Assembly (NCBI GenBank): GCA_009929485.1 | Contig: SAAJ01000011.1 | Span: forward strand, 1-64,000 | From: Negativicutes bacterium | GTDB lineage: Bacteria > Bacillota > Negativicutes > Anaeromusales > Anaeromusaceae | Reading direction: 5' to 3' | Length of the DNA: 64,000 bases | Shown: one piece after another, positions 28,208-44,081 of the stretch | Numbering within the stretch: the stretch's first letter is position 1 | How the letters are laid out: each line of letters opens with the position of its first letter | Translations under genes and position numbers: made by a program | The notes under the pieces: model-generated | Told to the model about the DNA's origin: nothing | Seen by the model: only the letters and a program-made list of their open reading frames with translations | Database searches by the model: none

Positions 28208-29737
28208 TTATACCGGGAGGTTGCCGTGCTTTTTGGCCGGACGAGCCTCACGCTTGCTGGACAACATGTTGAAGGCCGTAATAATGCGCGGACGAGTTTC
28301 CTTGGGCTCAATGACGATGTCAACGAAGCCGCGTTCAGCCGCTTTGTACGGAGTTGCGAACTCTTCAACATATTTTTCGGTTTTCGCAGCCACATCAGGA
28401 TCCTTACGGAAGATGATGTTAGCAGCACCGGCAGGACCCATAACGGCAATCTCAGCAGTCGGCCAAGCAAACACTTGATCGGCGCCCAAGTCCTGAGAGC
28501 ACATGGCCAGATAGGAACCGCCATACGCTTTACGGGTAATTACGGTTACTTTCGGCACGCTGGCTTCGGAATATGCATAAAGCATTTTGGCGCCATGACG
28601 GATGATACCGCCATATTCTTGATCAACACCAGGCAAGAAGCCAGGAACGTCAACCAAGGTGAGAATCGGAATATTGAAGGCATCGCAGAAACGAATAAAC
28701 CGCGCGGATTTATCCGAAGCGTTGATGTCTAAGCAGCCAGCCATAACGTTCGGCTGATTGGCAATAATACCGACCGCGCGACCGTCCAAGCGGGCAAAGC
28801 AAGTGATGATGTTCTGCGCATAATGCTTATGCGATTCATAGAACTCACCATTGTCAACCACTTCGCGGATTACATCGAACATGTCGTAAGGCATGTTCGG
28901 GTTATCCGGCAGCAAGGTGTTGAGCTCGTCAGACATGCGGTTCGGGCAGTCGCCGGTATCCACAACCGGAGTTTCTTCCAGGTTGTTGCTGGGCAGGAAG
29001 CTCAGCAGGTACTGGATCTGCTCCAGGCAGTCCTGATCATTTTCAGCTGCAAAATGAGCCACCCCAGATACGGAGTTATGCGTCATAGCGCCGCCGAGGT
29101 CTTCTGCGGTTACTTCTTCCGCCGTAACGGATTTAATAACTGCAGGACCGGTAATAAACATCTGGCTGGTGTTCTTCACCATATAGATGAAGTCGGTCAG
29201 AGCCGGAGAATACACAGCGCCGCCAGCACATGGTCCCATGATTACGGAAATCTGCGGGACAACGCCGGATGCCAGAGTGTTTTTGTAGAAAATTTTGCCG
29301 TAGCCTGCCAAAGCGTCAACCGCTTCTTGAATACGAGCGCCGCCGGAATCGTTTATACCAACGATCGGAGCTCCCATTTTCAAGGACAGATCCAACACTT
29401 TACAGATTTTAGCAGCATGCATTTCACCCAAAGAACCGCCTTCGCAGGTGAAATCCTGAGCAAATGCATACACCAGGCGGCCATTAACCGTGCCGTAGCC
29501 GGTAATAACGCCTTCGGCGGGAATTTCTTTCGTCTGCATGCCAAAGTTTACGCAACGATGCCGTACAAACTGATCCAATTCCACAAAGCTTTCGGGGTCA
29601 AAAAAGAATTCAATGCGCTCACGGGCCGTCATCTTACCGGAAGCATGTTGCTTTTCAACGCGTTTTGCGCCGCCGGCTTGCATGATTTTGGCCTGATTGG
29701 CTTTCAGTTCTTGGATTTTTTCCTGAACAGTAGCCAT
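28208..29737 (-). CDS. mmdA: methylmalonyl-CoA carboxyltransferase (decarboxylase alpha or transcarboxylase 12S)
   Basis: The enzyme moves the carboxyl group from (S)-methylmalonyl-CoA to biotin, releasing propionyl-CoA. The 509-residue protein has the two crotonase-fold carboxyltransferase halves. GYGTVNGRLVYAFAQDFT and GGARIQEAVDALAGYGKIFY form the first oxyanion region, and RKAYGGSYLAMCSQDLGAD lies in the second half. GGAGG lies ahead of the ATG. It follows the epimerase, as expected for succinate-to-propionate fermentation. Acetyl- or propionyl-CoA carboxylase is a less likely reading because no biotin carboxylase gene is nearby. Confidence 0.94.
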   Translation of the reverse strand: MATVQEKIQELKANQAKIMQAGGAKRVEKQHASGKMTARERIEFFFDPESFVELDQFVRHRCVNFGMQTKEIPAEGVITGYGTVNGRLVYAFAQDFTCEGGSLGEMHAAKICKVLDLSLKMGAPIVGINDSGGARIQEAVDALAGYGKIFYKNTLASGVVPQISVIMGPCAGGAVYSPALTDFIYMVKNTSQMFITGPAVIKSVTAEEVTAEDLGGAMTHNSVSGVAHFAAENDQDCLEQIQYLLSFLPSNNLEETPVVDTGDCPNRMSDELNTLLPDNPNMPYDMFDVIREVVDNGEFYESHKHYAQNIITCFARLDGRAVGIIANQPNVMAGCLDINASDKSARFIRFCDAFNIPILTLVDVPGFLPGVDQEYGGIIRHGAKMLYAYSEASVPKVTVITRKAYGGSYLAMCSQDLGADQVFAWPTAEIAVMGPAGAANIIFRKDPDVAAKTEKYVEEFATPYKAAERGFVDIVIEPKETRPRIITAFNMLSSKREARPAKKHGNLPV

Positions 29738-29767
29738 CGTACACCTCCTGTAGATTCTCGCAATGAT

Positions 29768-30175
29768 CTATTTGCGCTCGGACAGTTCCACCAGCACACT
29801 GCCGGTCGCTTTCGGATGTACGAAGGCGATGCTGGCTCCACCGGCACCATAGCGGGGTTTTTCGTCAATCATACGAATGCCTTGCTCTTTCAAAGTAGCA
29901 AGCGCAGCTTCCAGGTTTTCGACGCGGAACGCCACATGCTGGATGCCTTCGCCTTTTTTCTCAATGAACTTGGCAATCGGGCCGTCTGGGCTAGTGGACT
30001 CCAACAGTTCCACTTCGCTGTCGCCGCAAGGAATGAAGCAAACGCGAACTTTCTGCTCTTCTACCACTTCTTCGCCCATGGCTTGCAGGCCCAAAACTTC
30101 TGTATAGAATTTTTTAGCCTGTTCGAGATCTTTTACTGCAATCCCGATATGATCTACTTTCAAAGCTTTAAACAC
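29768..30175 (-). CDS. mce: methylmalonyl-CoA epimerase
   Basis: The enzyme interconverts (R)- and (S)-methylmalonyl-CoA, linking the B12 mutase to the decarboxylase. The 135-residue vicinal-oxygen-chelate protein has the metal ligands in VDHIGIAVKDLEQAKKFY (His), GIQHVAFRVENLE (His) and the C-terminal SVLVELSE (Glu). The GTG start has GAGGAGG upstream. It sits between meaB and mmdA. Confidence 0.96.
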   Translation of the reverse strand: MFKALKVDHIGIAVKDLEQAKKFYTEVLGLQAMGEEVVEEQKVRVCFIPCGDSEVELLESTSPDGPIAKFIEKKGEGIQHVAFRVENLEAALATLKEQGIRMIDEKPRYGAGGASIAFVHPKATGSVLVELSERK

Positions 30176-30211
30176 GATTCTACCTCCTCTTTCTAAGCTT
30201 GCTCTAGGAAC

Positions 30212-31150
30212 TCAGCGCAACACTTGGTGTAAAATTTCACGCACCACCGAATAGGGATCTTTCTCTCTTTGCTCTACTTGGATAACCAAGTTGTCAAAGT
30301 TTCCAGACTCCTGCAGATGACGCATAACTTTCCTGCCAATTTCCTCGTCCAGTAAATCCAGTAGCTCGTTTTTCGTCCGCTCGCGTCGACGCACCGTTAG
30401 AGCGCCGCTTGTTTGCAGATATTCAAAATGTTCGCCAATGGTCTCTACCAGCTCAGTTACGCCCTCATCCCGGCTGGCTACCGTCCGCTTCACCGGCGGT
30501 CTCCAGTCGGTATGCTCCTGATTTAAGTCGAGCATCATGTCTAATTCGACATGGAGCTTGTCGACTCCTTCCCTGTCCGCTTTGTTGATGGCAAAGACAT
30601 CGCCAATTTCCAAAATGCCTGCTTTGATCGCTTGAATGTCGTCTCCCAGACCGGGAACCATCACTACAATTGTAGTGTCCGCAGCCTTTACGATGTCGAC
30701 TTCTGACTGACCAACGCCGACGGTTTCAACAAAGACTACGTCCATGCCAAACGCGTCAAGGATTTTCACAGCTTCCGCCGTTTTGCGCGACAAGCCTCCC
30801 AGAGAACCTCTGGTGCCCATACTACGGATAAATACGCCTTCGTCCATGGTGAGATCCACCATGCGGATGCGGTCGCCTAAAATAGCGCCGCCCGAAAAAG
30901 GACTTGTAGGGTCAATGGCAATAATGCCTACTGTCTTGCCTTGGCGGCGATAAGCTTTGGCAAGTTTGTCGGTCAACGTGCTTTTACCGGCTCCCGGCGC
31001 GCCAGTGATACCGATAACATGAGCTCGGCCAGTATGAGGATACAGGGCTTTCATAATGTCTACCGCCGTATCATACTCATTCTCCACCGCTGTAATCGCC
31101 TTAGAGAGCGCTCTCCGAGATCCTGCTAGCACTTGTTCTGCAATATTCAT
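30212..31150 (-). CDS. meaB: methylmalonyl-CoA mutase-associated G3E GTPase MeaB
   Basis: MeaB (ArgK type) guards and reactivates methylmalonyl-CoA mutase and gates cobalamin loading. The 312-residue protein has the P-loop GAPGAGKST, IAIDPTSPFSGGAILGDRIR (switch region), ETVGVGQSE and NKAD for guanine. The ATG at 31150 is preferred over two in-frame GTGs that overlap the AAGGTGG ribosome site. A GC-rich hairpin at 31171-31196 stands just before that site. Confidence 0.95.
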   Translation of the reverse strand: MNIAEQVLAGSRRALSKAITAVENEYDTAVDIMKALYPHTGRAHVIGITGAPGAGKSTLTDKLAKAYRRQGKTVGIIAIDPTSPFSGGAILGDRIRMVDLTMDEGVFIRSMGTRGSLGGLSRKTAEAVKILDAFGMDVVFVETVGVGQSEVDIVKAADTTIVVMVPGLGDDIQAIKAGILEIGDVFAINKADREGVDKLHVELDMMLDLNQEHTDWRPPVKRTVASRDEGVTELVETIGEHFEYLQTSGALTVRRRERTKNELLDLLDEEIGRKVMRHLQESGNFDNLVIQVEQREKDPYSVVREILHQVLR

Positions 31151-31170
31151 TGGCAAATGCACCACCTTAT

Positions 31171-31196
31171 GGCCGCCCGCCTAAAGGCGGACGGCC
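31171..31196 (-). other. GC-rich hairpin between mcmA2 and meaB
   Basis: Eleven-base arms (31171-31181 and 31186-31196) pair with one mismatch around a four-base loop, with no T-run. The hairpin ends two bases before the meaB Shine-Dalgarno. It is more likely an RNA stabiliser or translation modulator than a terminator. Confidence 0.6.
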
Positions 31197-31234
31197 ACAC
31201 ATTCCTAACATAACCTGTGAACAGGCTAAAACGC

Positions 31235-31627
31235 TTATTTTACGTTTTCGTTGATAAAAGCTACGATGTCAGCGGTGGAAGTTCCTGGAGTAAAGACAGC
31301 GGCTACGCCGGCTTCTTTCAGGAAAGGAATGTCGCTGTCGGGGATAACGCCGCCGCCAACAACCAGTACGTCGGCCATGTCTTTTTCCTTCAAGCCTGCA
31401 ATAACTTTCGGGAAAAGAGTGTTATGAGCGCCGGACAGCAGGCTCAGAGCCACTACATCGACGTCCTCTTGCAAAGATGTCTCTACAATTTGTTCCACAG
31501 TTTGACGCAGGCCGGTATAAATAACCTCGAAACCTGCATCGCGCAAAGCGCGAGCCACTACTTTTGCGCCGCGGTCATGACCGTCAAGGCCCGGTTTAGC
31601 TACTAATATACGAATTTTTTTCTCCAT
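31235..31627 (-). CDS. mcmA2: methylmalonyl-CoA mutase, cobalamin-binding subunit
   Basis: The 130-residue protein is the separate B12 domain of the mutase. It begins [20 protein letters not shown], with the DxHxxG lower-ligand motif, and continues with [16 protein letters not shown] and [15 protein letters not shown] for the dimethylbenzimidazole pocket. Splitting of the mutase into catalytic and B12 chains is known from archaea and some Firmicutes. It lies directly downstream of the large subunit. Confidence 0.95.
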
Positions 31628-31655
31628 CGTTCGCTGTGCCTCCTAACTCTATCGC

Positions 31656-33299
31656 TTACAGGGTGCTTCCCGGTTGATATTCGCCGAATACTTTACGCAT
31701 TACGCCGCAAACTTCGCCCAAAGTGGCATACGCTTTAACTGCATCCAAAATCAAAGGCATGAGATTGTCTTCGCCTTTGCAAGCCGCTTCCAAAGCAGCC
31801 AATTTGGCAGTAACAGCAGCGTTGTCGCGAGTAGCGCGCAATTTTGCCAATTTATCCTTCTGCAGCTTACCAACGGACTCGTCGATTTTCAGCAGACCTT
31901 CAACAGGCTTTTCTTCGATTTGGAACTTATTGACGCCAACGATGACGCGCTCTTTGCGTTCCACTTCCATTTGCCATTTATAAGCGCTGTCCTGAATTTC
32001 TTTTTGGACATAGGCTTTTTCAATAGCTACAACTGCGCCGCCCAAATCATCAATTTTCTTGATGTAGTCGAGAGCTTCGCTTTCGATCTGGGTGGTCAAA
32101 GCTTCTACATAGTAGGAGCCGCCCAACGGATCGACGACGTCAGCCAGGCCGCTTTCATAAGCGACAATCTGCTGGGTACGCAGAGCAACGCGTACGGAAT
32201 CTTCCGTAGGCAGTGCCAACGCTTCGTCCTTGGAGTTGGTATGCAGGGACTGCGTACCGCCGAGAACGGCAGCTGCGGTCTGCAAAGCCACGCGGACAAT
32301 GTTGTTGTCCGGCTGTTGCGCCGTCAGCATGGAACCAGCAGTCTGGGTATGCACGCGCAGCATCCAGGAGCGAGGGTTCGTAGCGCCAAAGCGCTCTTTC
32401 ATGATTTTAGCCCAAACGCGGCGGGAAGCGCGGAATTTCGCAACTTCTTCCAACACGTTGTTATGAGCATTCCAGAAGAAGGACAGACGTCCAGCGAAAT
32501 CATCAACATTCAGGCCGGCTTTAATAGCCGCATCGACATAGGCAATGCCGTTGGCGATAGTGAAAGCGATTTCTTGGGAAGCAGTCGAGCCAGCTTCACG
32601 AATGTGATAGCCGGAAATAGAGATGGTGTTCCACAGGGGAACGTTTTTCGAGCAATATTCGAAAATATTGGTAATCAGACGCATGGACGGCTTAGGCGGG
32701 AAAATGTAAGTACCGCGAGCCGCATACTCTTTCAAAATATCATTCTGGATGGTGCCGCGCAGTTTGTCAGCGCTGACGCCTTGTTTCTCGCCAACGGCGA
32801 TGTACATGGCCAAAAGTACCGAAGCCGGCGCGTTGATGGTCATGGAAGTGGATACTTTGCTCAGATCAATCTGATCAAAGAGGATTTCCATGTCGGCCAG
32901 CGAGTCGATAGCCACGCCCACCTTGCCTACTTCGCCTTCAGCCATATCGTCGTCAGAATCGTAACCGATCTGAGTCGGCAGGTCAAATGCGCAAGACAGG
33001 CCGGTGCTGCCCGATTCGAGCAGGTAACGGTAACGCTTGTTGGATTCTTCCGCCGTGGAGAAGCCGGCATACATACGCATGGTCCAGAAACGGCCACGGT
33101 ACATGGTAGGCTGTACGCCACGGGTGAAGGGATAGGATCCTGGGAATCCGATATCGTTGACATAGTCGGTTCCTTCGATATCCAACGGAGTGTAGAGACG
33201 ATTGTGGGCCAGGTTACCGCGTTCAGGATTTTTCGCAATAGCCTTTTCCACTTTGGCTGCATAGGCTGCCAATTTTTCTTTCAAAACTTCATTGCTCAT
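31656..33299 (-). CDS. mcmA1: methylmalonyl-CoA mutase, catalytic subunit
   Basis: The enzyme rearranges succinyl-CoA and (R)-methylmalonyl-CoA through a B12 radical. The 547-residue TIM barrel has [20 protein letters not shown], which lines the substrate channel, [17 protein letters not shown] and [14 protein letters not shown]-like sequence (here [19 protein letters not shown]). It lacks a C-terminal B12 domain, which is encoded by the next gene. The ATG at 33299 has AAAGGAGG ten bases upstream. The in-frame TTG two codons earlier is less likely. Confidence 0.95.
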
Positions 33300-33326
33300 T
33301 AACAAAGGGCCTCCTTTACTCTTTCT

Positions 33327-34835
33327 TTATTTCAATTTCATTGTGCCCGTTTCTTGAAAACGGACATGCCACGAAAGGGCCTCGGACAAAATGTGCGGGG
33401 TATGCGCATTTTTTGTCGCTTTACAAGCACGTTCATAGTAGTCCAGCAACATGGGCTTGAAGTCGGGATGAGCACAGTTTTCAATAATAACCTTAGCTCG
33501 CTCACGCGGGCTGAGGCCGCGCACATCAGCCAGACCTTGCTCAGTAACAAAGACGTCAATGTCATGCTCGCTGTGATCCACATGGGATACAAAAGGCACG
33601 ATCGAGGAAATAGCACCGTCCTTCGCCGTTGAAGTGGAGAAGAACATGGTCAAATAGCCGTTACGAGCGAAATCGCCGGAACCGCCAATACCATTCATCA
33701 TTTTGCTGCCCATGATATGAGTGGAGTTGACATTACCATAAATGTCAAATTCAATCGCCGTATTCATGGCGATAATCCCCAATCGACGGGCCAGTTCCGG
33801 GCTGTTGGAAATTTCCTGCGGCCGCAGAACCATCTTAGTACGATATTCATCAATATTTTGATACAAACGCTCCAAGCCTTCCGGAGACGGCGAGAAGGAA
33901 GTACCAGAGGCAAAGCGAAGTTTTCCGGCGTCAGCCAAATCCAGCATGCCGTCCTGAATAACTTCGGTAAAAACTTCAAGGTTTTCAAAATCGGAATTCA
34001 CAAAGCCAGTGACAACAGCGTTTGCTACAGAGCCTACGCCAGATTGCAAAGGCAACAGGTTTTTCGGCAAACGGCCGGCTTTGATTTCCTGATGGAAAAA
34101 CTCAATAGCCAGTTCCGACATTTTTTTAGAATCATCGTCAATGGGCGCAAAACCGCGCACATCGTCTTTGATGTCGCAAGCGACAATATACTTGATTTTA
34201 TCCGGACCGCAGGGAATATAGGGAGTTCCAATCCGTTCGTCAACTTTGCACAACGGAATAGCTTTGCGGTGCGGCGGATCTTCCGGCGTATAGACATCAT
34301 GCATGCCTTCCAGCTCTAACGGCTGGCTGGTATTCACTTCTACGATAACTACATCGGCTTCCTGTACAAAGGATGCGGTGTTCCCCATAGAGGTCGTAGG
34401 AATAATATGGCCTTCTTCCGTAATCGCACAGGCTTCTACGATAGCCACATCCACTTTGCCGCCAAGAAAACCATAACGCACCATCTGGGCGGAATGGCTC
34501 AAGTGCAGGTCAAAGTATTCCAATTTACCCGCATTTAAGGCTTTACGCAAATCATTGTTGGTCTGATAAGGCATACGGCGGGCAATACCGCCAACCTCCA
34601 TCAAAGCGCCATCCAATTCCTTGCCTACGGAAGCGCCTGTCCAAAGGTTAATCTGGAAAGGTTCTTTTTTCATTCGCTCCGCCAACGCCAAAGGCACAGC
34701 CTTCGGATAGCCGGCAGGAGTGAAACCGCTGGCGCCAATGTTCATCCCGGGTTTAATAAAGGCTGCAGCTTCTTCGGCGCTGACAATCTTTGCATGCAGT
34801 TCTTTATTGCGCACGCGATCCCGAATGTCAATCAT
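33327..34835 (-). CDS. acetyl-CoA hydrolase/transferase family CoA-transferase (succinate/propionate type)
   Basis: The enzyme transfers CoA between succinate and propionyl-CoA or acetyl-CoA. The 502-residue protein has the class I CoA-transferase Cat1/ScpC features: GASGFTPAGYPKAVPLAL near residue 35, a catalytic Glu in the SFVQEADVVIVEVN region, and GIGGSGDFARNGYLTMFFS with VTEQGLADVRGLSPRERAK near the end. In this operon it would regenerate succinyl-CoA while releasing propionate. The ATG at 34835 has GGAGGAG eight bases upstream. It is the first gene of the operon. Confidence 0.9.
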   Translation of the reverse strand: MIDIRDRVRNKELHAKIVSAEEAAAFIKPGMNIGASGFTPAGYPKAVPLALAERMKKEPFQINLWTGASVGKELDGALMEVGGIARRMPYQTNNDLRKALNAGKLEYFDLHLSHSAQMVRYGFLGGKVDVAIVEACAITEEGHIIPTTSMGNTASFVQEADVVIVEVNTSQPLELEGMHDVYTPEDPPHRKAIPLCKVDERIGTPYIPCGPDKIKYIVACDIKDDVRGFAPIDDDSKKMSELAIEFFHQEIKAGRLPKNLLPLQSGVGSVANAVVTGFVNSDFENLEVFTEVIQDGMLDLADAGKLRFASGTSFSPSPEGLERLYQNIDEYRTKMVLRPQEISNSPELARRLGIIAMNTAIEFDIYGNVNSTHIMGSKMMNGIGGSGDFARNGYLTMFFSTSTAKDGAISSIVPFVSHVDHSEHDIDVFVTEQGLADVRGLSPRERAKVIIENCAHPDFKPMLLDYYERACKATKNAHTPHILSEALSWHVRFQETGTMKLK

Positions 34836-35024
34836 TAACAACTCTCCTCCTTAGTTCTGGCAACAGAAGCATTTTTACCGGAAATTCCTTGCACGTAATC
34901 TCCCTACTACCTCACCTCCAGCACTGATGCTGTTACGTAAGAATCCTTGCTTTTCAGGGCCGACACCCTTGCGTTCAATATAGAACAAGCTAGGATAGTC
35001 ACTGCAAAAAAGGAAAGGGTCGCA

Positions 35025-35208: not shown

Positions 35209-35844
35209 CTAGTCTTGACGCGTCAAATAATAAGAAAGACTGCTTAAGCCTACTGACAAATCTTCGTTAATTAAAGACACCTGACGCGGCACTTCAATCT
35301 TACGGGGAGCAAAGTTCCAAATCCCTTTGACACCAGCCGCCACCAGGCGATCTACCATCAGCTGCGCATGTTCCGCCGGCACGGCAATAATAGCAATCTG
35401 TATCTGCCGCTGCCGAACGATTTCTTCTAGTTGGTCGGCATGCTCAATGGCCACACCGTTTACAACCATGCCAATACGCTCCGGCGCCACATCCAAGAGC
35501 GCCGCCATATTAAAACCTAAGGAAGAAAAATTTTTGTAATGCGCCAAGGCCCAACCCAAATGTCCCATACCTACAACCGCAATATTCCAGTTGTGATGCA
35601 AACCAAGGATCTCGCCGATATTGCGCAAGAGCTCCCGCACATAATAACCGACGCCTTTTTTTCCAAATTGTCCGAAAGAAGCCAAATCCTTGCGAATCTG
35701 CTCTGGCGTCACGCCCAAGCGATTTCCCAGTTCCTCCGAGGAAATAATTTCAATCCCCTCTTCTTGGCTCAACTTCAGCGTGCGAAAGTACAGCGGCAAA
35801 CGATCAATTGTCGCCTTCGAAATCATGATATGTTCTTTCAACAA
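35209..35844 (-). CDS. rex: redox-sensing transcriptional repressor Rex
   Basis: Rex senses the NADH/NAD ratio and represses fermentation and hydrogenase genes. The 211-residue protein has an N-terminal winged helix (about 8-80, with SSEELGNRLGVTPEQIRKDL and FGQFGKKGVGY) and a Rossmann domain with VVGMGHLGWALAHY. The C-terminal domain-swapped helix is present. The start is one of two adjacent TTG codons (35844 or 35841) with GGGGG five to eight bases upstream. Next to both the propionate and hydrogenase operons, it is their likely regulator. Confidence 0.95.
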   Translation of the reverse strand: MLKEHIMISKATIDRLPLYFRTLKLSQEEGIEIISSEELGNRLGVTPEQIRKDLASFGQFGKKGVGYYVRELLRNIGEILGLHHNWNIAVVGMGHLGWALAHYKNFSSLGFNMAALLDVAPERIGMVVNGVAIEHADQLEEIVRQRQIQIAIIAVPAEHAQLMVDRLVAAGVKGIWNFAPRKIEVPRQVSLINEDLSVGLSSLSYYLTRQD

Positions 35845-36088: not shown

Positions 36089-37813
36089 TTATCCTCTCCG
36101 TTGCGGCTTGTAATGCGTATGCAGTAAATGATGCGACTTTTCGCTCAATGGAGCCTGCAGCCAAGAAGCATATAACTCCTGCACCGCCGGGTTTTCATGG
36201 GATTTACGCAAACCGCTTCTTTCATCGCATTCGTACAAGGCCGCCATACGACGCTGACGAAAGTCCGCCATCTTGCTGCGCGGCTGTCCGCCTCCGCCCA
36301 GACAACCGCCAGGACAAGCCATAATCTCAATAAAGTGGTAATCAACCTCGCCAGCTCTTACTTTTTCCAGCAACGTTCTCGCATGGCGCAGCGAATGCGC
36401 GATGGCCACGCGAACGATTGTGCCCTGCAGGTCAATTTCCGCTTCCCGAATTCCTTCCAGGCCGCGTACTTCACGCAGTTCCACTTTTGCTAAAGCACAG
36501 CCAGTTACCGTCTCGTAGACCGTCCTCAAGGCGGCCTCCATCACACCGCCGGTACTGCCGAAAATAACGCCAGCACCGGTAGAAATACCCATAGGAGCGT
36601 CAAATTCTTCTTCTGGCAACGCTTCAAAATCCAAGCCGGCTTCGCGAATCATAGCCGCTAGTTCCTGGGTTGTCAGCACATAATCCACATCCCGAAAGCC
36701 GCTGTCACACATTTCCGGGCGCACCGCTTCGGCTTTCTTCGCCGTACAGGGCATTACCGAAACAGAGACAATATCCTCCGCCTTAATCCCGCTTTTTTCT
36801 GCATAGTAGGTTTTCACCAAGGCGCCGAAAATCTGCTGAGGCGACTTAGCTGTCGACAAATGCGGCAGCAACTCCGGATAAAAAAGCTCCGCAAAATTAA
36901 TCCATCCAGGGCTGCAAGAAGTGATCATCGGCAGCACGCCGCCTTCTTTAATGCGCCGCAAGAGTTCATTGCCTTCTTCCATAATGGTCACATCGGCGGC
37001 GAAATCAGTATCGAACACCTTATCAAAACCAAGTCTGCGCAAGGCCGCCACCATTTTCCCCGTTACGATGCTGGCGGCCGGCAAGCCCAGCGCTTCCCCC
37101 AAAGCTACCCGCACTGCCGGCGCTGTCTGGACTACCACATGCTTGCCTGCATCGGCCAGCGCCTCCCAAACCGGCGCCGTATCATCTTTGATGGTAATCG
37201 CTCCTGTCGGGCAAACAGCCGCGCACCGTCCGCAGTAGGTACAGGCCGCCGCGTCTAAGCCCATGCCAAAGGCAGGAGACACTTCCGTATGAAAGCCCCG
37301 CTTCGTGAAGCTATATACATGAACTCCTTGCACTTCACTACACGCCCGTATACACCGACCGCATAAAATACACTTTTCAGGATCGCGCACAAGGGATGGA
37401 TTGGAAGCATCCTTTCCTCCCCGCCGGCGTTCCCCGTTAAAACGAACCTGTCGAATACCAAGTTCTGCGGCAATGGTCTGCAGCTCGCAATCGCCATTGC
37501 GTTCGCATGCCAGACAATCTGCCGGATGATTCGCCAAAAGCAATTCCACCACCATTTTGCGCGCATCCCGCACCGCCGGACTATGCGTATGCACTACCAT
37601 GCCTTCCGCCACAGGATGCACGCAAGACGCCGCTAACGAACGGGCGCCCTCAATTTGCACCAGACAAACACGACAGCTTCCCTCTGGGTGCAGCTCCGGA
37701 TGATGGCAAAGAGTGGGAATCTTTACGCCGGCCAGGCGCGCCGCCTCCAAGACAGTAGCCGATTTGGGCGCTTCAACAGTCTGGCCGTCCACTGTAATAC
37801 ATACCGTATCCAT
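36089..37813 (-). CDS. hydA: NADH-linked [FeFe] hydrogenase catalytic subunit
   Basis: This is the H2-evolving or H2-oxidising subunit. The 574-residue protein has an N-terminal [2Fe-2S] domain (Cys 36, 47, 50, 64), a His-ligated cluster segment HPADCLACERNGDCELQ (96-112), and two [4Fe-4S] ferredoxin motifs (148-158 and 191-201). The H-cluster motifs are TSCSPGW (298-304), MPCTAKKAEA (from 354) and MACPGGCLGGGGQP (from 498). With NuoF- and NuoE-like subunits in the operon it matches the trimeric bifurcating enzyme that uses NADH and ferredoxin together. The maturases HydE, HydF and HydG are not in this window. Confidence 0.96.
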   Translation of the reverse strand: MDTVCITVDGQTVEAPKSATVLEAARLAGVKIPTLCHHPELHPEGSCRVCLVQIEGARSLAASCVHPVAEGMVVHTHSPAVRDARKMVVELLLANHPADCLACERNGDCELQTIAAELGIRQVRFNGERRRGGKDASNPSLVRDPEKCILCGRCIRACSEVQGVHVYSFTKRGFHTEVSPAFGMGLDAAACTYCGRCAAVCPTGAITIKDDTAPVWEALADAGKHVVVQTAPAVRVALGEALGLPAASIVTGKMVAALRRLGFDKVFDTDFAADVTIMEEGNELLRRIKEGGVLPMITSCSPGWINFAELFYPELLPHLSTAKSPQQIFGALVKTYYAEKSGIKAEDIVSVSVMPCTAKKAEAVRPEMCDSGFRDVDYVLTTQELAAMIREAGLDFEALPEEEFDAPMGISTGAGVIFGSTGGVMEAALRTVYETVTGCALAKVELREVRGLEGIREAEIDLQGTIVRVAIAHSLRHARTLLEKVRAGEVDYHFIEIMACPGGCLGGGGQPRSKMADFRQRRMAALYECDERSGLRKSHENPAVQELYASWLQAPLSEKSHHLLHTHYKPQRRG

Positions 37814-37834: not shown

Positions 37835-39625
37835 TTATCCTTTAACAATGGCCTGGAATGGACATTTAGCCAGACAACTGCCGCACTTGATGCATTTTTG
37901 CGCATCGATAACATGCCGCCCTTTGATTTCTCCGGAAATGGCCCCTACAGGGCATACCTTCTTACAAAGACCGCAGCCCTTGCATGTATCCGTAATCGAA
38001 TACGCCGCCATTTTAGCGCAGGCGCCGGCTGGACAGCGTTTCTCCCGGATATGGGCTTCATATTCGTGACGGAAATAGCGCAGTGTACTGAGCACCGGAT
38101 TGGGCGCCGTCTGTCCCAAGCCGCAAAGAGAAGCCGCCTTAATGCTGCGTCCCAGTTCTTCGAGCAGTTCAATGTCTCCTTCTCGGCCCTCGCCTTCTGT
38201 AAGGCGGGTCAGAATTTCCAACATGCGTTTTGTACCTTCCCGACAGGGCGTACACTTACCGCAGGATTCGGACTGAGTAAAATTCAAGAAAAAGCGAGCC
38301 ACATCCACCATACAGGTGGTTTCATCCATGACTACCAGACCGCCTGAACCCATCATAGCCCCCACCTGTAATAAAGAGTCATAATCTACAGGCAGGTCTA
38401 AAAGCTCTTCCGGCAGGCAGCCCCCGGAAGGTCCTCCTATTTGCACGGCTTTGAATTTTTTTCCGTTTTGAATACCGCCGCCAATATCAAAAATGATTTC
38501 CCGCATCGTAATGCCCATGGGCACTTCCGCCAAGCCCGTATGATTCACTTTGCCAGTCAAAGCAAATACTTTCGTTCCTTTGCTTTTTTCCGTACCGATA
38601 GAAGCGTACCATGCGCCGCCTTTGGCGATAATTTGCGGCACATTGGCAAAGGTTTCCACGTTATTGATATTTGTCGGCTTGCCCCAAAGCCCAGCCACTG
38701 CCGGAAAAGGAGGTCTGGGACGCGGCATGCCTCGCTTGCCTTCAATAGATGCCAAAAGAGCCGTTTCTTCACCGCATACAAAGGCGCCAGCGCCTTCTTT
38801 GATCTTAATATGAAACGAGAAGCCGGAACCCAAGATATCCTCTCCCAAAAGGCCCATGGCTTCCGCCTGAGCGATAGCCACCTTCAGCCGCTTGATGGCC
38901 AAAGGATATTCGGCTCGCACATAGATATAGCCCTCGTCCGCACCAATGGCATAGCCGCAAACAAGCATACCTTCCAGCACCCGGTGCGGATCTCCTTCCA
39001 GCACGCTGCGATCCATAAACGCCCCCGGGTCTCCCTCGTCGGCATTGCAAACCACATATTTTTTCCCTTGCGGCTCCTTGGCGGCAAAGCTCCACTTCAA
39101 GCCGGTTGGAAAGCCGCCGCCGCCGCGCCCCCGCAGACCGGAAAGTTTAACCTCGTCTACTACCTGCTGCGGCGTCATCGTCGTCAAAGCTCTGCCTAAG
39201 GCCTCATAACCGCCGCCGGCAATATATTCCTCAATTACTTCCGGATTGATATGCCCGCAATTGGCCAATACCAAGCGCTGCTGCTTATGATAAAACTGAA
39301 TGTCCTCATAACTGGGAATGCGTTCCGCCGTCAACGGCTCTTGGTAAAGCAGCCGCTGCACAATACGTCCCTTGTAAAAATGCTCTTCTACCAGTTCTGG
39401 AACATCTTCCTCCTGCACTCGCACATAAAAAACGCCCTCTGGGTAGACAATAAGCAACGGCCCCATCTCGCAAAAACCGTGACAGCCGGTTTCAACAATC
39501 TTAATTTCCCGAGCTAAGCCTTTTTCCTCCAGCTCCCGCCGCAATGCGGCTTCCACCTTTTTTGAGCCGGACGACGTACAGCCTGTTCCGGCACAAATCA
39601 ATACATGCGCCCTTACGTATTCCAT
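37835..39625 (-). CDS. hydB: NuoF-like flavoprotein subunit of the [FeFe] hydrogenase
   Basis: This subunit carries FMN and is where NADH and ferredoxin meet in bifurcating hydrogenases. The 596-residue protein has an N-terminal thioredoxin-like [2Fe-2S] domain (Cys 11, 16, 48, 52). The FMN/NADH-binding motif GLRGRGGGGFPTGLKW follows, and SCGKCTPCREGTKRM carries a [4Fe-4S] cluster. Two C-terminal ferredoxin clusters (CKGCGLCKKVCP and CIKCGSCLAKCP) end the chain. It is larger than NuoF of complex I because of both added domains. GGAGGAGG precedes the ATG. Confidence 0.95.
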   Translation of the reverse strand: MEYVRAHVLICAGTGCTSSGSKKVEAALRRELEEKGLAREIKIVETGCHGFCEMGPLLIVYPEGVFYVRVQEEDVPELVEEHFYKGRIVQRLLYQEPLTAERIPSYEDIQFYHKQQRLVLANCGHINPEVIEEYIAGGGYEALGRALTTMTPQQVVDEVKLSGLRGRGGGGFPTGLKWSFAAKEPQGKKYVVCNADEGDPGAFMDRSVLEGDPHRVLEGMLVCGYAIGADEGYIYVRAEYPLAIKRLKVAIAQAEAMGLLGEDILGSGFSFHIKIKEGAGAFVCGEETALLASIEGKRGMPRPRPPFPAVAGLWGKPTNINNVETFANVPQIIAKGGAWYASIGTEKSKGTKVFALTGKVNHTGLAEVPMGITMREIIFDIGGGIQNGKKFKAVQIGGPSGGCLPEELLDLPVDYDSLLQVGAMMGSGGLVVMDETTCMVDVARFFLNFTQSESCGKCTPCREGTKRMLEILTRLTEGEGREGDIELLEELGRSIKAASLCGLGQTAPNPVLSTLRYFRHEYEAHIREKRCPAGACAKMAAYSITDTCKGCGLCKKVCPVGAISGEIKGRHVIDAQKCIKCGSCLAKCPFQAIVKG

Positions 39626-39635
39626 GGTCCTCCTC

Positions 39636-40001
39636 CTAGTTATCTATTTTAGCCACAACCCATTCTTCGACAATGCGCCCGTTCACCACATGCTCGCCTA
39701 CAATGCGCTCCACCTTGTCCGGAGTTACTTTTCCATAAATAATGCGCGGCTGCCCCGGCAGCACCACATCCAAAAGAACCTCTTGCTCGCACATGCCTAT
39801 ACAGCCTGTTTGTTGTACACTGACCCCTTCCAAGTGTCTCTTAGCCACCTCTTCCAGGGTTGACTTAAGCACCTCGCGCGCGCCGGCGGCTATGCCGCAC
39901 GTGCCCATGCCAATAATAATTCGCGTATCTGTCTGCTGCCGAATACGAATATCCTGCCGCACGCGTTCACGCAAACGATTTAACTCTTCCAGTGTTTTCA
40001 T
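39636..40001 (-). CDS. thioredoxin-fold [2Fe-2S] ferredoxin-like protein of the hydrogenase operon
   Basis: The 121-residue protein starts MKTLEELNRLRERVRQDIRI, a short helical region, then GMGTCGIAAGAREV and TGCIGMCEQEVLL. Only three Cys are at the cluster positions (35, 67, 71) where classical thioredoxin-like ferredoxins have four. This pattern seems usual for small proteins beside NuoF-like hydrogenase subunits. GAGGAGG marks the ATG at 40001, which overlaps the upstream stop by four bases. It may pass electrons or form part of the complex. Confidence 0.82.
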   Translation of the reverse strand: MKTLEELNRLRERVRQDIRIRQQTDTRIIIGMGTCGIAAGAREVLKSTLEEVAKRHLEGVSVQQTGCIGMCEQEVLLDVVLPGQPRIIYGKVTPDKVERIVGEHVVNGRIVEEWVVAKIDN

Positions 40002-40516
40002 GCTTGTTCCTCCTCTTTCAATGCATTCCAGCCTGTCTCCAGCACTTCTTTCAAAGTCAACATGTCCAGCCCTGTTGTAGTCGATGAATCCCACTGCCAT
40101 TGCCGCCCATCCCGATAATGCAGGTATTGAAAATGAATTTGCGGCATTGTCACCGCCAAGGTCCACAAAGTACCGGGCAAATCGCCCCAAGGCGGCAAAT
40201 CAGGATGGCTTCTGCCAAAGGAAGCGCAAAGCATCGTCCCTAAACCAGGCCGGGAAATCATCCTCACTTTGCCGCCGCAATGTCGCGTCCACATATCTAA
40301 AAGACCCAAACCTAGGCCAACAGCGCGTGTTGTTCGTTTCGTAAAAAAAGGATTCAACGCCTCTTTGCATTCTTGGCGCGTCATGCCTCTCCCGTCATCA
40401 GCAATCCTCCATGTTAAAGAGTCTCCAATTTCTCGTACGCGGATATCCACACGGGCCGCCCCCGCTTCCAGAGAATTTCGCAAAAGCTCTAACAGAAGCA
40501 GCGACAGCTCTTTCAT
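39998..40516 (-). CDS. GHKL ATPase-domain protein of the hydrogenase operon
   Basis: The 172-residue protein has a histidine-kinase-like ATP-binding fold. The N-box is LLLELLRNSLEAGA, the G1 box DDGRGM and the G2 region RAVGLGLGLLDMW. No dimerisation domain or phospho-His is present. The last 70 or so residues (from about 105) do not look like any domain I know. It sits between the two [2Fe-2S] subunit genes, overlapping both by four bases. A signalling or anti-sigma-like role is inferred from the fold only. Confidence 0.8.
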   Translation of the reverse strand: MKELSLLLLELLRNSLEAGAARVDIRVREIGDSLTWRIADDGRGMTRQECKEALNPFFTKRTTRAVGLGLGLLDMWTRHCGGKVRMISRPGLGTMLCASFGRSHPDLPPWGDLPGTLWTLAVTMPQIHFQYLHYRDGRQWQWDSSTTTGLDMLTLKEVLETGWNALKEEEQA

Positions 40517-41019
40517 GACTGTCCACGATAGGGCTGCAAAATACCTCCTATGCCTTCCGGCGTCAAACGGCCGTACGTGTCATCGTCAATCATCATAACC
40601 GGCGCCAGGCCGCAGGCGCCAATACAGGCCACGGTTTCCAAGGTAAAGTTCAAGTCTGCTGTCGTCTCGCCCGGCTTTACGCCCAACTCTTTTTCCATGG
40701 CTTCTAAAATTGCTTTAGCGCCCCTTACATGGCAGGCCGTTCCTTGGCACACCCTTACAATATGTTTCCCTCGCGGATTAAGATGGAACTGTGAGTAAAA
40801 TGTCACCACGCCATATACTTGGCTGATAGGCAAATGCAAGCCATCGGCAATCCGTTCCAGCACCTCCCGCGATAAATACCCATAAGCGTCTTGAGCCTGT
40901 TGCAGTACCGGAATTAAAGCTCCCGGCGCCTCTTGATAGCGCGCAAGAATAGCTGCAAGTTCTTCATACCTCTCACCAGCTCCTCCGCACGCACATCCTG
41001 ACTTCGATAATTTCATCAT
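40513..41019 (-). CDS. hydC: NuoE-like [2Fe-2S] subunit of the hydrogenase
   Basis: The 168-residue protein matches the 24-kDa subunit of complex I: helical N-terminal domain with LIPVLQQAQDAYGYLSREVL, then the thioredoxin-like fold with VCQGTACHVRGA and ETVACIGACGLAPVMM (four Cys for one [2Fe-2S]). An extra N-terminal Cys pair (GCACGG) is present. It would complete the HydABC complex. Either of two adjacent ATGs may be used, after GGGGG. Confidence 0.94.
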   Translation of the reverse strand: MMKLSKSGCACGGAGERYEELAAILARYQEAPGALIPVLQQAQDAYGYLSREVLERIADGLHLPISQVYGVVTFYSQFHLNPRGKHIVRVCQGTACHVRGAKAILEAMEKELGVKPGETTADLNFTLETVACIGACGLAPVMMIDDDTYGRLTPEGIGGILQPYRGQS

Positions 41020-41030
41020 CGTTTCCCCCT

Positions 41031-41804
41031 TTACGCGTTCTCCTCTTTATTACGGTTATGCCATCGCAGCCAACGTCCGTCTTTGCCCTGCAAAGCCAGA
41101 TGAAATTCGGCTAACGTAGGCTTTTCCATCATGATTTGCACTTTGCCGCCTTGACAAAGCGCATCTAAGCTATGCGCATCTGATGCCGTCACCAAGGGCA
41201 GCTCCTGCGGCAAAAGCGGCAATCTCCGCCGCGCTTCAGCTTCGGTCGCCACACAAGTTGAGATTTCCGCCGCCGCCACGGGCAATTCCGTCGGCCAAAT
41301 TCCCAACTGCCCCAAAAGGCTGTAAGCTGGCCGATCCACATGACTGGCAATGACCATCCCGCCCAGGCGAACCGCTTCTTCGCAAAGAGTTTGCGCATCC
41401 GCCGTTAACGCCGAAAGCAGCAACTCCTCCCGCTCGCCCAGCAGTTCATCTTCCGCGCTTAAAATCCACTGCGGCCCAAAAAGACGACTCTGATTCAGTC
41501 TGCCATTACGCCAGCCGTCCACTTTGGCGCACCAAGACGCAAACGCCGGCCAATCGTCAAAAATCGCCAGTAAATGCGCTTCCTCGGCGCACTCCACTTC
41601 CATCCCCGGCCAAACCGTTAATGAGCTCTGCCTCGCCGCCTGCCAGACCGCTTTGGCATTGTCACCGGCATTATGGTCGGTAACAGCGATAATATCCAAG
41701 CCTAACTCCAGCGCCGTCTCCACCACCAAAGACGGCGTCATCTCCACTGAAGCGCAAGGAGACAACACCGTATGCACATGCAAGTCCGTCAAATAAGATC
41801 GCAT
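41031..41804 (-). CDS. PHP-domain phosphoesterase-like protein of the hydrogenase operon
   Basis: The protein starts MRSYLTDLHVHTVLSPCASV and is 257 residues. It has the metal-binding PHP motifs DLHVHT, VTDHNAGDN, a downstream ASHVDRPAYSL and TASDAHSLD. PHP proteins hydrolyse phosphoester bonds, but the substrate is unknown here. The start is placed so that it overlaps the DRTGG gene by 16 bases. A start 12 codons earlier is possible. Genes like it recur in hydrogenase clusters of Clostridia and Thermotogales. Confidence 0.85.
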   Translation of the reverse strand: MRSYLTDLHVHTVLSPCASVEMTPSLVVETALELGLDIIAVTDHNAGDNAKAVWQAARQSSLTVWPGMEVECAEEAHLLAIFDDWPAFASWCAKVDGWRNGRLNQSRLFGPQWILSAEDELLGEREELLLSALTADAQTLCEEAVRLGGMVIASHVDRPAYSLLGQLGIWPTELPVAAAEISTCVATEAEARRRLPLLPQELPLVTASDAHSLDALCQGGKVQIMMEKPTLAEFHLALQGKDGRWLRWHNRNKEENA

Positions 41805-42154
41805 ATTTCTTGGCCCACGCCCAGTGCATGGAGCCGGCAAACGATATCAAAGGCGGGCAAGTCCGTTACTAGAAGAGGCATCCCTACTTCGTCCGCCTTG
41901 GCCAAGGCCGCCGCTTCCGGTTTAGCGCCTCCCGCAACGATCACTGCCGCCATTCCCGCCAAGGAAGCGACGGCCAACAAATTCACATGACTTTGCATGG
42001 TCACCCATACCGTTCCCTCGCCAGCCTGCGCTAAAGCGCAGCTCATCAAATCTGAAACAAACCCCCCCTGCACTTCGCGCTGCAACCCTTGCGCCCCTCC
42101 GGCAAGCTTCAGCGGCAATTCCCGAGTTAAATCCGCTACCAGCACAGCCTCCAC
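41789..42154 (-). CDS. DRTGG-domain protein of the hydrogenase operon
   Basis: The 121-residue alpha/beta protein is a stand-alone DRTGG domain, the regulatory module also seen in phosphotransacetylase and CBS-domain proteins. LQREVQGGFVSDLMSCALAQ and VWVTMQSHVNLLAVASLAGM fit the family. It has no catalytic residues that I can see. The GTG start lies one base after the upstream stop, so translation is coupled. A ligand-sensing function is inferred. Confidence 0.8.
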   Translation of the reverse strand: MEAVLVADLTRELPLKLAGGAQGLQREVQGGFVSDLMSCALAQAGEGTVWVTMQSHVNLLAVASLAGMAAVIVAGGAKPEAAALAKADEVGMPLLVTDLPAFDIVCRLHALGVGQEICDLI

Positions 42155-42155
42155 C

Positions 42156-43448
42156 TCAGCTTTCTTCTTCGCTTTTATCCAAGGAAGGCGGCAGTTTCTC
42201 CGCCAAACTTTTCATTTCTTGGGCTAAATCGCGCACTCGCTGCCGCAGCAAAAATACGCAATCCGTTTCACTGGCCTGCCCCTGCACAATGTCCTCCGCC
42301 AGAGCGCGGCAGTTCGGCGACCCGCAGGAGCCACAGTCTAATCCCGGCAGCTTGTACAGCATTTCTTCCATGCTTTCCACTTTACGCAGCGCTTCGTGAA
42401 TATCCTGATCCAGGCGCAGCACCGGCTTAGGCAGCGGCAACGGCAGCACCTCCACGGCCCTATGTTTTTCCGGCGTCTTCGACGGCCAGATGGAAGCCCG
42501 TCCGCGAAGCTGCGTCTCGCCTACAAAACGGTTAACCGCCGTCAAAGGACCTCCAATGCAGCCTCCGGCGCAGGCCAGCGCCTCGATATAGCGCACCTGA
42601 CCCAACGTACCAAAAGCAACCTGCTCCAGCAGTTGACTGACTTGCTCAATTCCGTCCACCGCCAGCACGCTGTCTTGCATTACACCTTGACTTTCCCCGC
42701 CGGCTAAGGCCCAGCCGGCTCCCAGCCAGCTAGACTCCACCTCCACCTCAGGGCAATCCTTATCGTGAACTTTAGCCAGTAATTCCCCGTAAAGATGCGA
42801 AATAGCGATAGCCCCGTCAATAACACCGCAGGCTTGCTTCACCGCCGTCATCTTCGCCGGGCAAGGCGTCAAAAACCAAACGCCTATTTTCTCCGGCGGC
42901 AAGCCAGTCTGCTCAACCGCTCTGGCTCTAGCTAAGCGAGCCGTAACCGTTACAGGCGCCTCCATAGGCACCAGGCAAGGCAGCAGGTCTGGAAACTTCA
43001 CCTGTACCAGACGCACAACCGCAGGACAGGCTGAGGAAATCAAGGGTTTCGGAATCTCTTTTTTCTGGAGCAATCGCTTCACTGCCGCCGTCACGTCAGC
43101 CGCCCCCAAAGCCACTTCACACACTGCATCAAAACCAAGCTGCAGCAATCCCCCCAAAATTCGTCCCACCGATACAGTTGCTGGAAATTGAGCATACAGC
43201 GACGGCGCCGGCAAGGCCACATTGTAGGAGAACCGTTCCAGGCAATCCATGGCGTCGGTTACCGTTGTCTTCGCCTTAGCCGGACAAAGACGAATGCATT
43301 CGCCGCAATCAATACAACGTTCTTCCAAAATGCGCGCTTTTCCGGCGCGCACTCGAATGGCTTCCATGGGACAGTGCTTAGCACAGACTACGCAGCCTCG
43401 GCAACGCGCTTCAATCAAACGCACCGAATGAAAATAGCTGTCACTCAT
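42156..43448 (-). CDS. sensory-type [FeFe] hydrogenase-like iron-sulfur protein
   Basis: The 430-residue protein has two N-terminal [4Fe-4S] ferredoxin motifs (CRGCVVCAKHCP and CIDCGECIRLCP). An H-cluster-like domain follows, with SSACPAVV, TPCPAKMTA and ALACAGGCIGGP in place of the L1, L2 and L3 motifs. The C-terminus has LDCGSCGSPNC, an added Fe-S domain. Cys ligands are mostly kept, but the Trp of L1, the Met of L2 and the Gly-rich tail of L3 are changed. This resembles sensory [FeFe] hydrogenases rather than catalysts. GGGGAG is six bases before the ATG at 43448. It lies between a GHKL protein and the DRTGG protein. Confidence 0.85.
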   Translation of the reverse strand: MSDSYFHSVRLIEARCRGCVVCAKHCPMEAIRVRAGKARILEERCIDCGECIRLCPAKAKTTVTDAMDCLERFSYNVALPAPSLYAQFPATVSVGRILGGLLQLGFDAVCEVALGAADVTAAVKRLLQKKEIPKPLISSACPAVVRLVQVKFPDLLPCLVPMEAPVTVTARLARARAVEQTGLPPEKIGVWFLTPCPAKMTAVKQACGVIDGAIAISHLYGELLAKVHDKDCPEVEVESSWLGAGWALAGGESQGVMQDSVLAVDGIEQVSQLLEQVAFGTLGQVRYIEALACAGGCIGGPLTAVNRFVGETQLRGRASIWPSKTPEKHRAVEVLPLPLPKPVLRLDQDIHEALRKVESMEEMLYKLPGLDCGSCGSPNCRALAEDIVQGQASETDCVFLLRQRVRDLAQEMKSLAEKLPPSLDKSEEES

Positions 43449-43896
43449 GGTCTGCTCCCCTCTGATGCCGAAATAACATGGAAACCGACGTACCCACACC
43501 CGGTTTCGAATCGATAACCAATTCATCGGCGCAACGCTTCATATTAGGTAAACCCATCCCCGCGCCGAAACCCATCTCACGAATTTCCGGCGGCGCTGTA
43601 GAAAAGCCCTCGCACATGGCTTGGCTTACATCCGCAATACCAGGCCCCTCATCTTCCACAACCACTTTTGTTTCTTCAGCAGTGACGCTCGCCCGCATTA
43701 CCCCGCGCCGTGCATGAATGATCACATTCAGCTCCGCTTCATACGCGCCCACCGATGCCCGGCGAATTACATCTCCTGGAAGTCCCAACCGACGCATAAC
43801 GTCTTTTAATTGCATAGCGCCGTCGCCTGCCCGCGAGAAATCAAAGCCCTTTATGGGCCATTCTTTCTGCCAGGCATTCATTTTTTCCTGCTCCAT
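43441..43896 (-). CDS. anti-sigma-factor-like GHKL ATPase, first gene of the hydrogenase operon
   Basis: The 151-residue protein has the compact RsbW/SpoIIAB fold. The N-box is SVGAYEAELNVIIHA, the G1 box VEDEGPGI and the G2 region GFGAGMGLPNMKR. Such proteins bind ATP and act as kinases or anti-sigma factors. The ATG at 43896 with GGTGG about eight bases upstream is preferred over an in-frame TTG eight codons before. No sigma factor or anti-anti-sigma gene is nearby, so the partner is unknown. It starts the operon just below a promoter. Confidence 0.85.
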   Translation of the reverse strand: MEQEKMNAWQKEWPIKGFDFSRAGDGAMQLKDVMRRLGLPGDVIRRASVGAYEAELNVIIHARRGVMRASVTAEETKVVVEDEGPGIADVSQAMCEGFSTAPPEIREMGFGAGMGLPNMKRCADELVIDSKPGVGTSVSMLFRHQRGADHE

Positions 43897-43956: not shown

Positions 43957-43972
43957 TTCTCTAATAAAACCA

Positions 43973-44019
43973 AAAGCGTGTCAAGATGCATTTGGAATGA
44001 ACATCTCTTGACACGCTTT
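43973..44019 (-). terminator. terminator after the O-antigen ligase gene
   Basis: Arms 43973-43988 and 44002-44019 pair over 16 bases with a two-base bulge and are followed on the minus strand by T-rich sequence. It lies 63 bases past the waaL stop and just upstream of the hydrogenase promoter. Confidence 0.8.
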
Positions 44020-44081
44020 GTGCTTTTTGGTCTATATTCGCTTTATTTAATGTAAATTCCTGCAACTTAGTTATAAAAATT

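Follow-up and report, generated by a model that had tools for sequence, protein, structure and literature searches.

A candidate H2- or redox-sensing signaling cassette in the bifurcating hydrogenase operon of a Negativicutes bacterium

The 64,000-nucleotide stretch analyzed here (the window: positions 1 to 64,000 of contig SAAJ01000011.1, assembly GCA_009929485.1, from a Negativicutes bacterium of the family Anaeromusaceae) carries a nine-gene operon on the minus strand, from 43896 to 36089. Its genes encode, in order, W (an RsbW/SpoIIAB-like GHKL ATPase), S (a sensory-type [FeFe] hydrogenase), D2 (a DRTGG-fold protein), P (a PHP-family phosphoesterase), HydC, K (a second GHKL ATPase), a 2Fe-2S protein, HydB, and HydA (Table 1). 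We propose that S, W, D2, P, and K probably act together as a signaling cassette that serves the bifurcating hydrogenase HydABC, in which sensing of H2 or redox state tunes the enzyme. Neighboring genes overlap or are separated by no more than about 21 bp by open reading frame (ORF) coordinates, with S overlapping W by 8 bp, and this tight packing of nine genes indicates a single transcript. A preliminary description of this DNA had recognized W, S, D2, and P ahead of the catalytic genes; all four lie on the minus strand where it placed them, with Pfam support for W, S, and P and a predicted fold for D2, whose Pfam score is below threshold. It had overlooked K, which is part of the same operon.

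By published hallmarks (PMC8163306, PMC10407848), the sequence of S classes it as a group D (M2e) sensory-type hydrogenase of the TamHydS type. We mapped its active site by aligning 81 S orthologs (from the window and the fetched loci) with the window's own HydA. The L1 motif of S was correctly read in the preliminary description as SSACPAVV, with Ala (A140) before the remaining Cys, at the position of the proton-relay residue C299 of CpI. This position is never Cys among the S orthologs (0/81; Ala in 48, Ser in 26, Thr in 5, and Asn and His in 1 each), and the position of CpI M353 is Ser or Thr in 79 of the 81 (T194 in the window); the combination of a replaced C299 with M353 changed to Ser/Thr is a hallmark of group D (PMC8163306). 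Other alterations that had been noted in L2 and L3 were also found, namely, Ala for E361 (as in most orthologs), Leu for M497 (a variable position), and GGPL for GGGxP. The cluster Cys, most of which had been described as kept, are in fact all retained: C141, C196, C293, and C297 (CpI C300, C355, C499, and C503) are invariant in 81/81 orthologs. The C-terminal Cx2Cx4Cx16C motif is likewise present in 81/81, and the eight N-terminal cluster Cys (two 4Fe-4S motifs) are invariant in the aligned orthologs.

These replacements leave the group A proton-relay site incomplete in S. A group D-specific proton path, E252-E289-S249-D265, has been described (PMC10407848), and its acidic residues are largely present among the S orthologs (E252 in 78/81, E289 in 81/81, and D265 in 71/81; all three in the window), while the window has Ala at position 249, where conservation within the family is moderate. 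Inability to turn over H2 is therefore not to be inferred from the missing C299. Phylogenetic analysis of 47 sequences placed 27 group D-type proteins (window S and 26 orthologs) on one side of a branch with a Shimodaira-Hasegawa-like approximate likelihood ratio (SH-aLRT) support of 100; in this tree, which did not include the TamHydS sequence, the S-containing clade was apart from HydA and from relatives bearing PAS, sigma-54, or methyl-accepting chemotaxis protein domains. Pfam gave no PAS match in window S, so S is not of the Thermotoga type (group C) to which it had been likened, although the absence of the proton-relay Cys that suggested this likeness stands. An AlphaFold model of S built from four sequences had a mean predicted local distance difference test score (pLDDT) of 52.5 and was not usable.

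SpoIIAB is the best named relative of W, with a score below the family cutoff (NCBIfam SpoIIAB, 50.5 bits versus 135; RsbW, 16.1 versus 145). Among 18 aligned W orthologs, N-box residues E53 and N57, the G1 box D82xG84xG86, and the G2 glycines are invariant, and the N-box Glu and Asn are those of Ser kinases. P carries the full PHP ligand pattern HxH, DH, E, H, H, DxH, with metal ligands H9, H11, D43, H44, E69, H77, H155, D209, and H211 invariant in 19 sequences; an alternative TTG start of P is possible at 41840. D2 scored 23.1 against a Pfam DRTGG cutoff of 25.2 (6.7e-5), and its AlphaFold model (pLDDT, 89.5) matched AF1212 DRTGG best among PDB structures (2ioj; template modeling score, 0.74) and also matched the CBS-DRTGG region of a clostridial pyrophosphatase (3l2b) and the N-domain of HPr kinase.

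Relatives carry a further DRTGG protein, D1, upstream of W, and D1 and D2 each keep an invariant Asp and Ser three residues apart. D1 is missing upstream of W in the window, in one same-species genome, and in two same-genus genomes but is present in all other class relatives whose upstream sequence could be read (16 loci), which indicates loss of D1 in the window's genus. The sole other DRTGG match in the window's genome lies in a 565-amino-acid (aa) frame elsewhere. Orthologs of K occur in nearly all cassettes. In the window's genus, K (172 aa) scores about 125 bits, compared with 141 to 189 in most class relatives; together with the loss of D1, this perhaps reflects partial decay of the module.

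Gene distribution across the phylum ties these families together. In a sample of 300 genomes from well over a hundred families, with ortholog groups separated from other families by a large score gap, W was present in 127 genomes, S in 120, and P in 116. W and S occurred together in 119 of the 300 (8 genomes had only W and 1 had only S), and P and S did so in 112 (Fisher's test, P about 1e-72 for W/S and about 1e-66 for P/S, kinship being ignored). Moreover, 116 of 128 W genes lay within 300 bp of S on the same strand. The association of W with S is not due to chance. The usual order in 82 fetched loci was D1-W-S-D2-P-C-K-F-B-A (D1 and D2, DRTGG proteins; C, HydC; F, 2Fe-2S protein; B, HydB; A, HydA), and most relatives read within the class shared the longer order valS-folC-D1-W-S-D2-P-C-K-F-B-A-rex. 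A HydB-like gene was found in 65/82 fetched loci, several of the remainder ending at a contig edge. The co-occurrence analysis proposed in the preliminary description thus shows the families traveling together, and mostly with hydrogenase genes rather than apart from them. No relatives were found in viral contigs.

Natural gene fusions connect the same proteins, and representatives of each fusion type were confirmed with Pfam. D1 is fused to W in five loci (L061, L062, L063, L069, and L089), a CBS pair to W in six (L050, L100, L126, L127, L128, and L129), W to S in L101, S to D2 in L043 and L046, and P to K in four (L091, L094, L099, and L117). Since neighboring genes fuse more readily than distant ones, the fusions support contact between these proteins but do not prove it. 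Linkage and fusions together bear out the association, suggested earlier, of a sensory-type hydrogenase with DRTGG, phosphoesterase, and kinase-like ATPase proteins.

From the observed gene content, order, packing, residue conservation, co-occurrence, fusions, and sensor replacement in relatives, we infer sensing by S, kinase activity of W, a phosphorylated partner, a PHP substrate, and a final target, arranged as follows. In S, the H-cluster would come to equilibrium with H2 and the N-terminal clusters would do so with ferredoxin, such that S would report H2 and/or the ferredoxin redox state. The state of S would change the activity of the GHKL kinase W by direct contact; D1 (lost in the window's genus) and D2 would regulate W or accept phosphate from it. 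P, together with K, would act as the opposing phosphatase and reverse the modification, and the amount or activity of HydABC would be adjusted as the output. The phospho-target of W is the weakest step of this mechanism.

Several observations weigh against a dedicated H2-sensing cassette for HydABC. The cassette encodes neither a transcription or sigma factor nor a STAS protein, and our literature search found no experimental work on W, D, P, or K. Eight W-bearing genomes lack S; two of these end at a contig edge, and six have contigs long enough to judge. Three of these six carry a CBS-pair-fused W. One such fusion occurs with HydABC in a genome without S (L126), and two occur without HydABC within the flanks read (L128 and L129). 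In the genome that contains L128, a second locus has an rnf operon immediately downstream of D1 and CBS-W (L127, 8160-15557), and the kinase module may control Rnf there too. W-S occurs without HydABC within the flanks read in four loci, and in L134 and L135, D1-D2-P-K lies beside rex while W-S is located elsewhere in those genomes. The link of the cassette to HydABC is thus strong but not absolute. Likewise, S is present in about 94% of the W-bearing genomes of the sample, yet HydS is not obligatory for W.

Since W carries CBS domains in three S-free genomes, once beside rnf, S appears to be an input that can be swapped within a broader redox module. We tentatively extend this to a possible, though less than likely, generalization: D1-W-D2-P-K may be an undescribed kinase/phosphatase module that serves anaerobic redox metabolism and accepts different sensors (HydS for H2 and CBS pairs for adenine nucleotides), in which DRTGG proteins are switches phosphorylated by W and reset by P and the target is HydABC in the majority of lineages but Rnf in some.

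Three other explanations would give the cassette or its members a different role. The cassette might act on the HydABC enzyme rather than on its expression, through ATP-dependent assembly, activation, or gating, with S exchanging electrons with the complex and W and K providing ATP-driven conformational work. The operon contains no DNA-binding or sigma-type output gene, the cassette is interleaved with structural genes (HydC separates P from K), it is tightly coinherited with HydABC, and it encodes two GHKL ATPases, all of which would fit such a role. However, D1-W-D2-P-K occurs also without HydABC or beside Rnf, CBS and DRTGG domains are typical regulatory inputs, and, to our knowledge, the HydABC structures 7q4v, 8a6t, and 7p5h were deposited without cassette proteins; we consider action on the enzyme itself rather unlikely.

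It is less probable still that W is a classical SpoIIAB/RsbW partner-switching anti-sigma factor/kinase that takes its input from S and whose targets, a STAS protein and a sigma factor, are encoded at other loci. Such a role is consistent with SpoIIAB being the best named relative of W, though below cutoff, and with at least one STAS protein in 78 of 80 W-bearing genomes. Two of the 80 have no STAS match, one of them being 98% complete, but with so few STAS-free genomes this absence is a weak test of partner switching. Many W-bearing genomes have a single STAS protein, probably the sporulation protein SpoIIAA. STAS and sigma genes are absent from the cassette, and in the loci read, W is fused to DRTGG, CBS, or HydS but never to STAS. 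Finally, S could be a slow metabolic hydrogenase, e.g., for ferredoxin-linked H2 uptake or as a safety valve, flanked by ordinary operon regulators, and both its full H-cluster ligation with a group D proton path and the H2 turnover of TamHydS (PMC10407848) allow for this, but the very low activity of TamHydS (about 0.1 µmol per mg per min [PMC10407848]) and the natural W-S and S-D2 fusions, which place S within a signaling protein, make it very improbable.

Table 1. Positions and supporting evidence for the operon genes and adjacent features in the window
Feature	Position	Strand	Evidence
W: RsbW/SpoIIAB-like GHKL ATPase, putative Ser/Thr kinase, 151 aa	43441..43896	-	Pfam HATPase_c_2 8.8e-11, HATPase_c 6.8e-9
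S: group D (M2e) sensory-type [FeFe] hydrogenase (by sequence hallmarks), HydS-like, 430 aa	42156..43448	-	Fe_hyd_lg_C 1.1e-28, PF04060
D2: small DRTGG-fold protein, 121 aa, GTG start	41789..42154	-	Pfam DRTGG 6.7e-5 (below cutoff), predicted fold
P: PHP-family phosphoesterase, 257 aa from ATG	41031..41804	-	Pfam PHP 4.1e-9
HydC: NuoE-like 2Fe-2S subunit	40513..41019	-	Pfam 2Fe-2S_thioredx 1.3e-57
K: second GHKL ATPase of the cassette, 172 aa	39998..40516	-	Pfam HATPase_c 6.1e-14
2Fe-2S thioredoxin-like protein between K and HydB	39636..40001	-	NCBIfam fdxn_Clost 1.5e-11 (below cutoff); position conserved
HydB: NuoF-like, FMN/NADH	37835..39625	-	Pfam Complex1_51K 1.4e-48; NuoF family
HydA: catalytic group A hydrogenase, NADH-dependent/bifurcating type	36089..37813	-	NCBIfam FeFe_hydrog_A6 889 bits, above cutoff
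rex-like redox (NADH/NAD+) repressor gene, downstream of the operon	35209..35844	-	Ortholog at same position in most class relatives
Inverted repeat, terminator-like, between upstream gene and W	43966..44026		21-nucleotide arms, 86% complementary

The operon likely starts downstream of the inverted repeat, judging from its terminator-like sequence. No Rex operator was found upstream of W, and the whole window holds one match with three mismatches, which is below chance expectation. The window's genome also encodes the maturase HydF. Beside the operon, ORF translations at 28208-34841 correspond to a methylmalonyl-CoA mutase, an epimerase, a decarboxylase subunit, and a CoA transferase, i.e., a propionate-type pathway. 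The closest solved structures to HydA are those of Thermoanaerobacter kivui and Acetobacterium woodii HydA1. L1 of the window HydA reads TSCSP, with Ser at the position of CpI Cys300, which we take to be an H-cluster ligand. Operons of this kind have TSCSP in 44 cases and TSCCP in 4; A. woodii HydA1 (7q4v) has TSCSP, while T. kivui has TSCCP.

Other [FeFe] proteins were also observed in the window's genome and in related loci. On another contig of the window's own genome (C31; L121, 541-4990), three consecutive genes resemble the published hfsB-hfsC-hfsD arrangement: they encode a 569-aa group C-like [FeFe] protein that has an extension and a FeS domain at its C terminus, a PP2C phosphatase of SpoIIE-like type, and a third, 500-aa [FeFe] protein. 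We considered this phosphatase as an obligate partner of W and rejected it: 69 genomes share both, but 58 have W without PP2C and 25 have PP2C without W. Downstream of the same operon, L050 (16906-19200), L045 (11080-12498), and L074 encode a fusion of a group C-type [FeFe] hydrogenase with a sigma-54 activator, with PAS and Sigma54_activat confirmed for L050; such a fusion is possibly a direct switch from H2 to transcription. L041 (6937-8847; Pfam checked) and L053 (6834-8747) encode, beside W-S, an [FeFe] hydrogenase-like protein joined in one chain to a methyl-accepting chemotaxis domain, an arrangement suggestive of H2 or redox taxis.

The main candidates for H2 sensing in fermenting bacteria include the group D hydrogenases, and control of H2 in such bacteria is relevant to gut and rumen fermentation, syntrophy, and biofuel yields. 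TamHydS, from Thermoanaerobacter mathranii, responds to H2 with slow turnover (PMC8163306, PMC10407848, PMC13104023). Its sensory role was argued biochemically in 2020, when a flanking kinase-like ATPase was noted and its signal transduction was called an open question by its authors (PMC8163306); the C-terminal cluster, one candidate signal route, is not reduced by H2 (PMC13104023). Earlier, group D M2e genes were reported upstream of trimeric bifurcating hydrogenases, often with a histidine/serine kinase between, and a regulatory link was proposed (PMC3561251, 2012, citing an earlier clostridial survey). The view in the preliminary description that no function had been assigned was thus too strong (PMC3561251, PMC8163306). 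We found no description of a DRTGG, PHP, or RsbW link to hydrogenases in the full-text literature searched, where absence is not proof since subscription papers were mostly outside the search. The full cassette D1-W-S-D2-P-K appears undescribed, while the sensor type and its upstream position beside a kinase-like ATPase were already published. The fusions and near-perfect coinheritance name W, D1, and D2 as probable direct partners of the sensor and P as a likely antagonist, and thereby make the open signaling question testable.

Compared by published traits rather than by alignment of its sequence, TamHydS, a proposed H2 sensor, shares with S a domain layout that lacks PAS, the C-terminal Cx2Cx4Cx16C motif, Cys299 to Ala, Met353 to Ser/Thr, Met497 to Leu, and Glu252/Glu289/Asp265. 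It differs in having Ser rather than Ala at position 249 and an AraC regulator, rather than a DRTGG protein, as its other neighbor. Cthe_0335 with Cthe_0340-0342 and Csac_1857 with Csac_1862-1864 (PMC3561251) also have a sensor upstream of HydABC with a kinase near, and the gene-number spacing inferred from their locus tags fits S-D2-P-C-K-F-B-A; in contrast, that paper makes no mention of DRTGG, PHP, fusions, or HydS-free cassettes, and the window lacks D1. TmHydS of Thermotoga maritima, in group C (M2f) (PMC10055695), resembles S in its relay Cys changed to Ala, an operon shared with the bifurcating hydrogenase, and a C-terminal FeS domain, but group C has PAS, whereas group D lacks it and forms a separate clade. 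SpoIIAB and RsbW share with W the GHKL fold and ATP-site residues, but W scores below threshold, has no STAS or sigma partner in the cassette, and has DRTGG, CBS, and HydS as fusion partners. Finally, the CBS-DRTGG region of clostridial pyrophosphatase (3l2b and 3l31) has the DRTGG fold of D2, and CBS pairs are found in the module of relatives; here, however, DRTGG is attached to a kinase-like ATPase instead of a pyrophosphatase.

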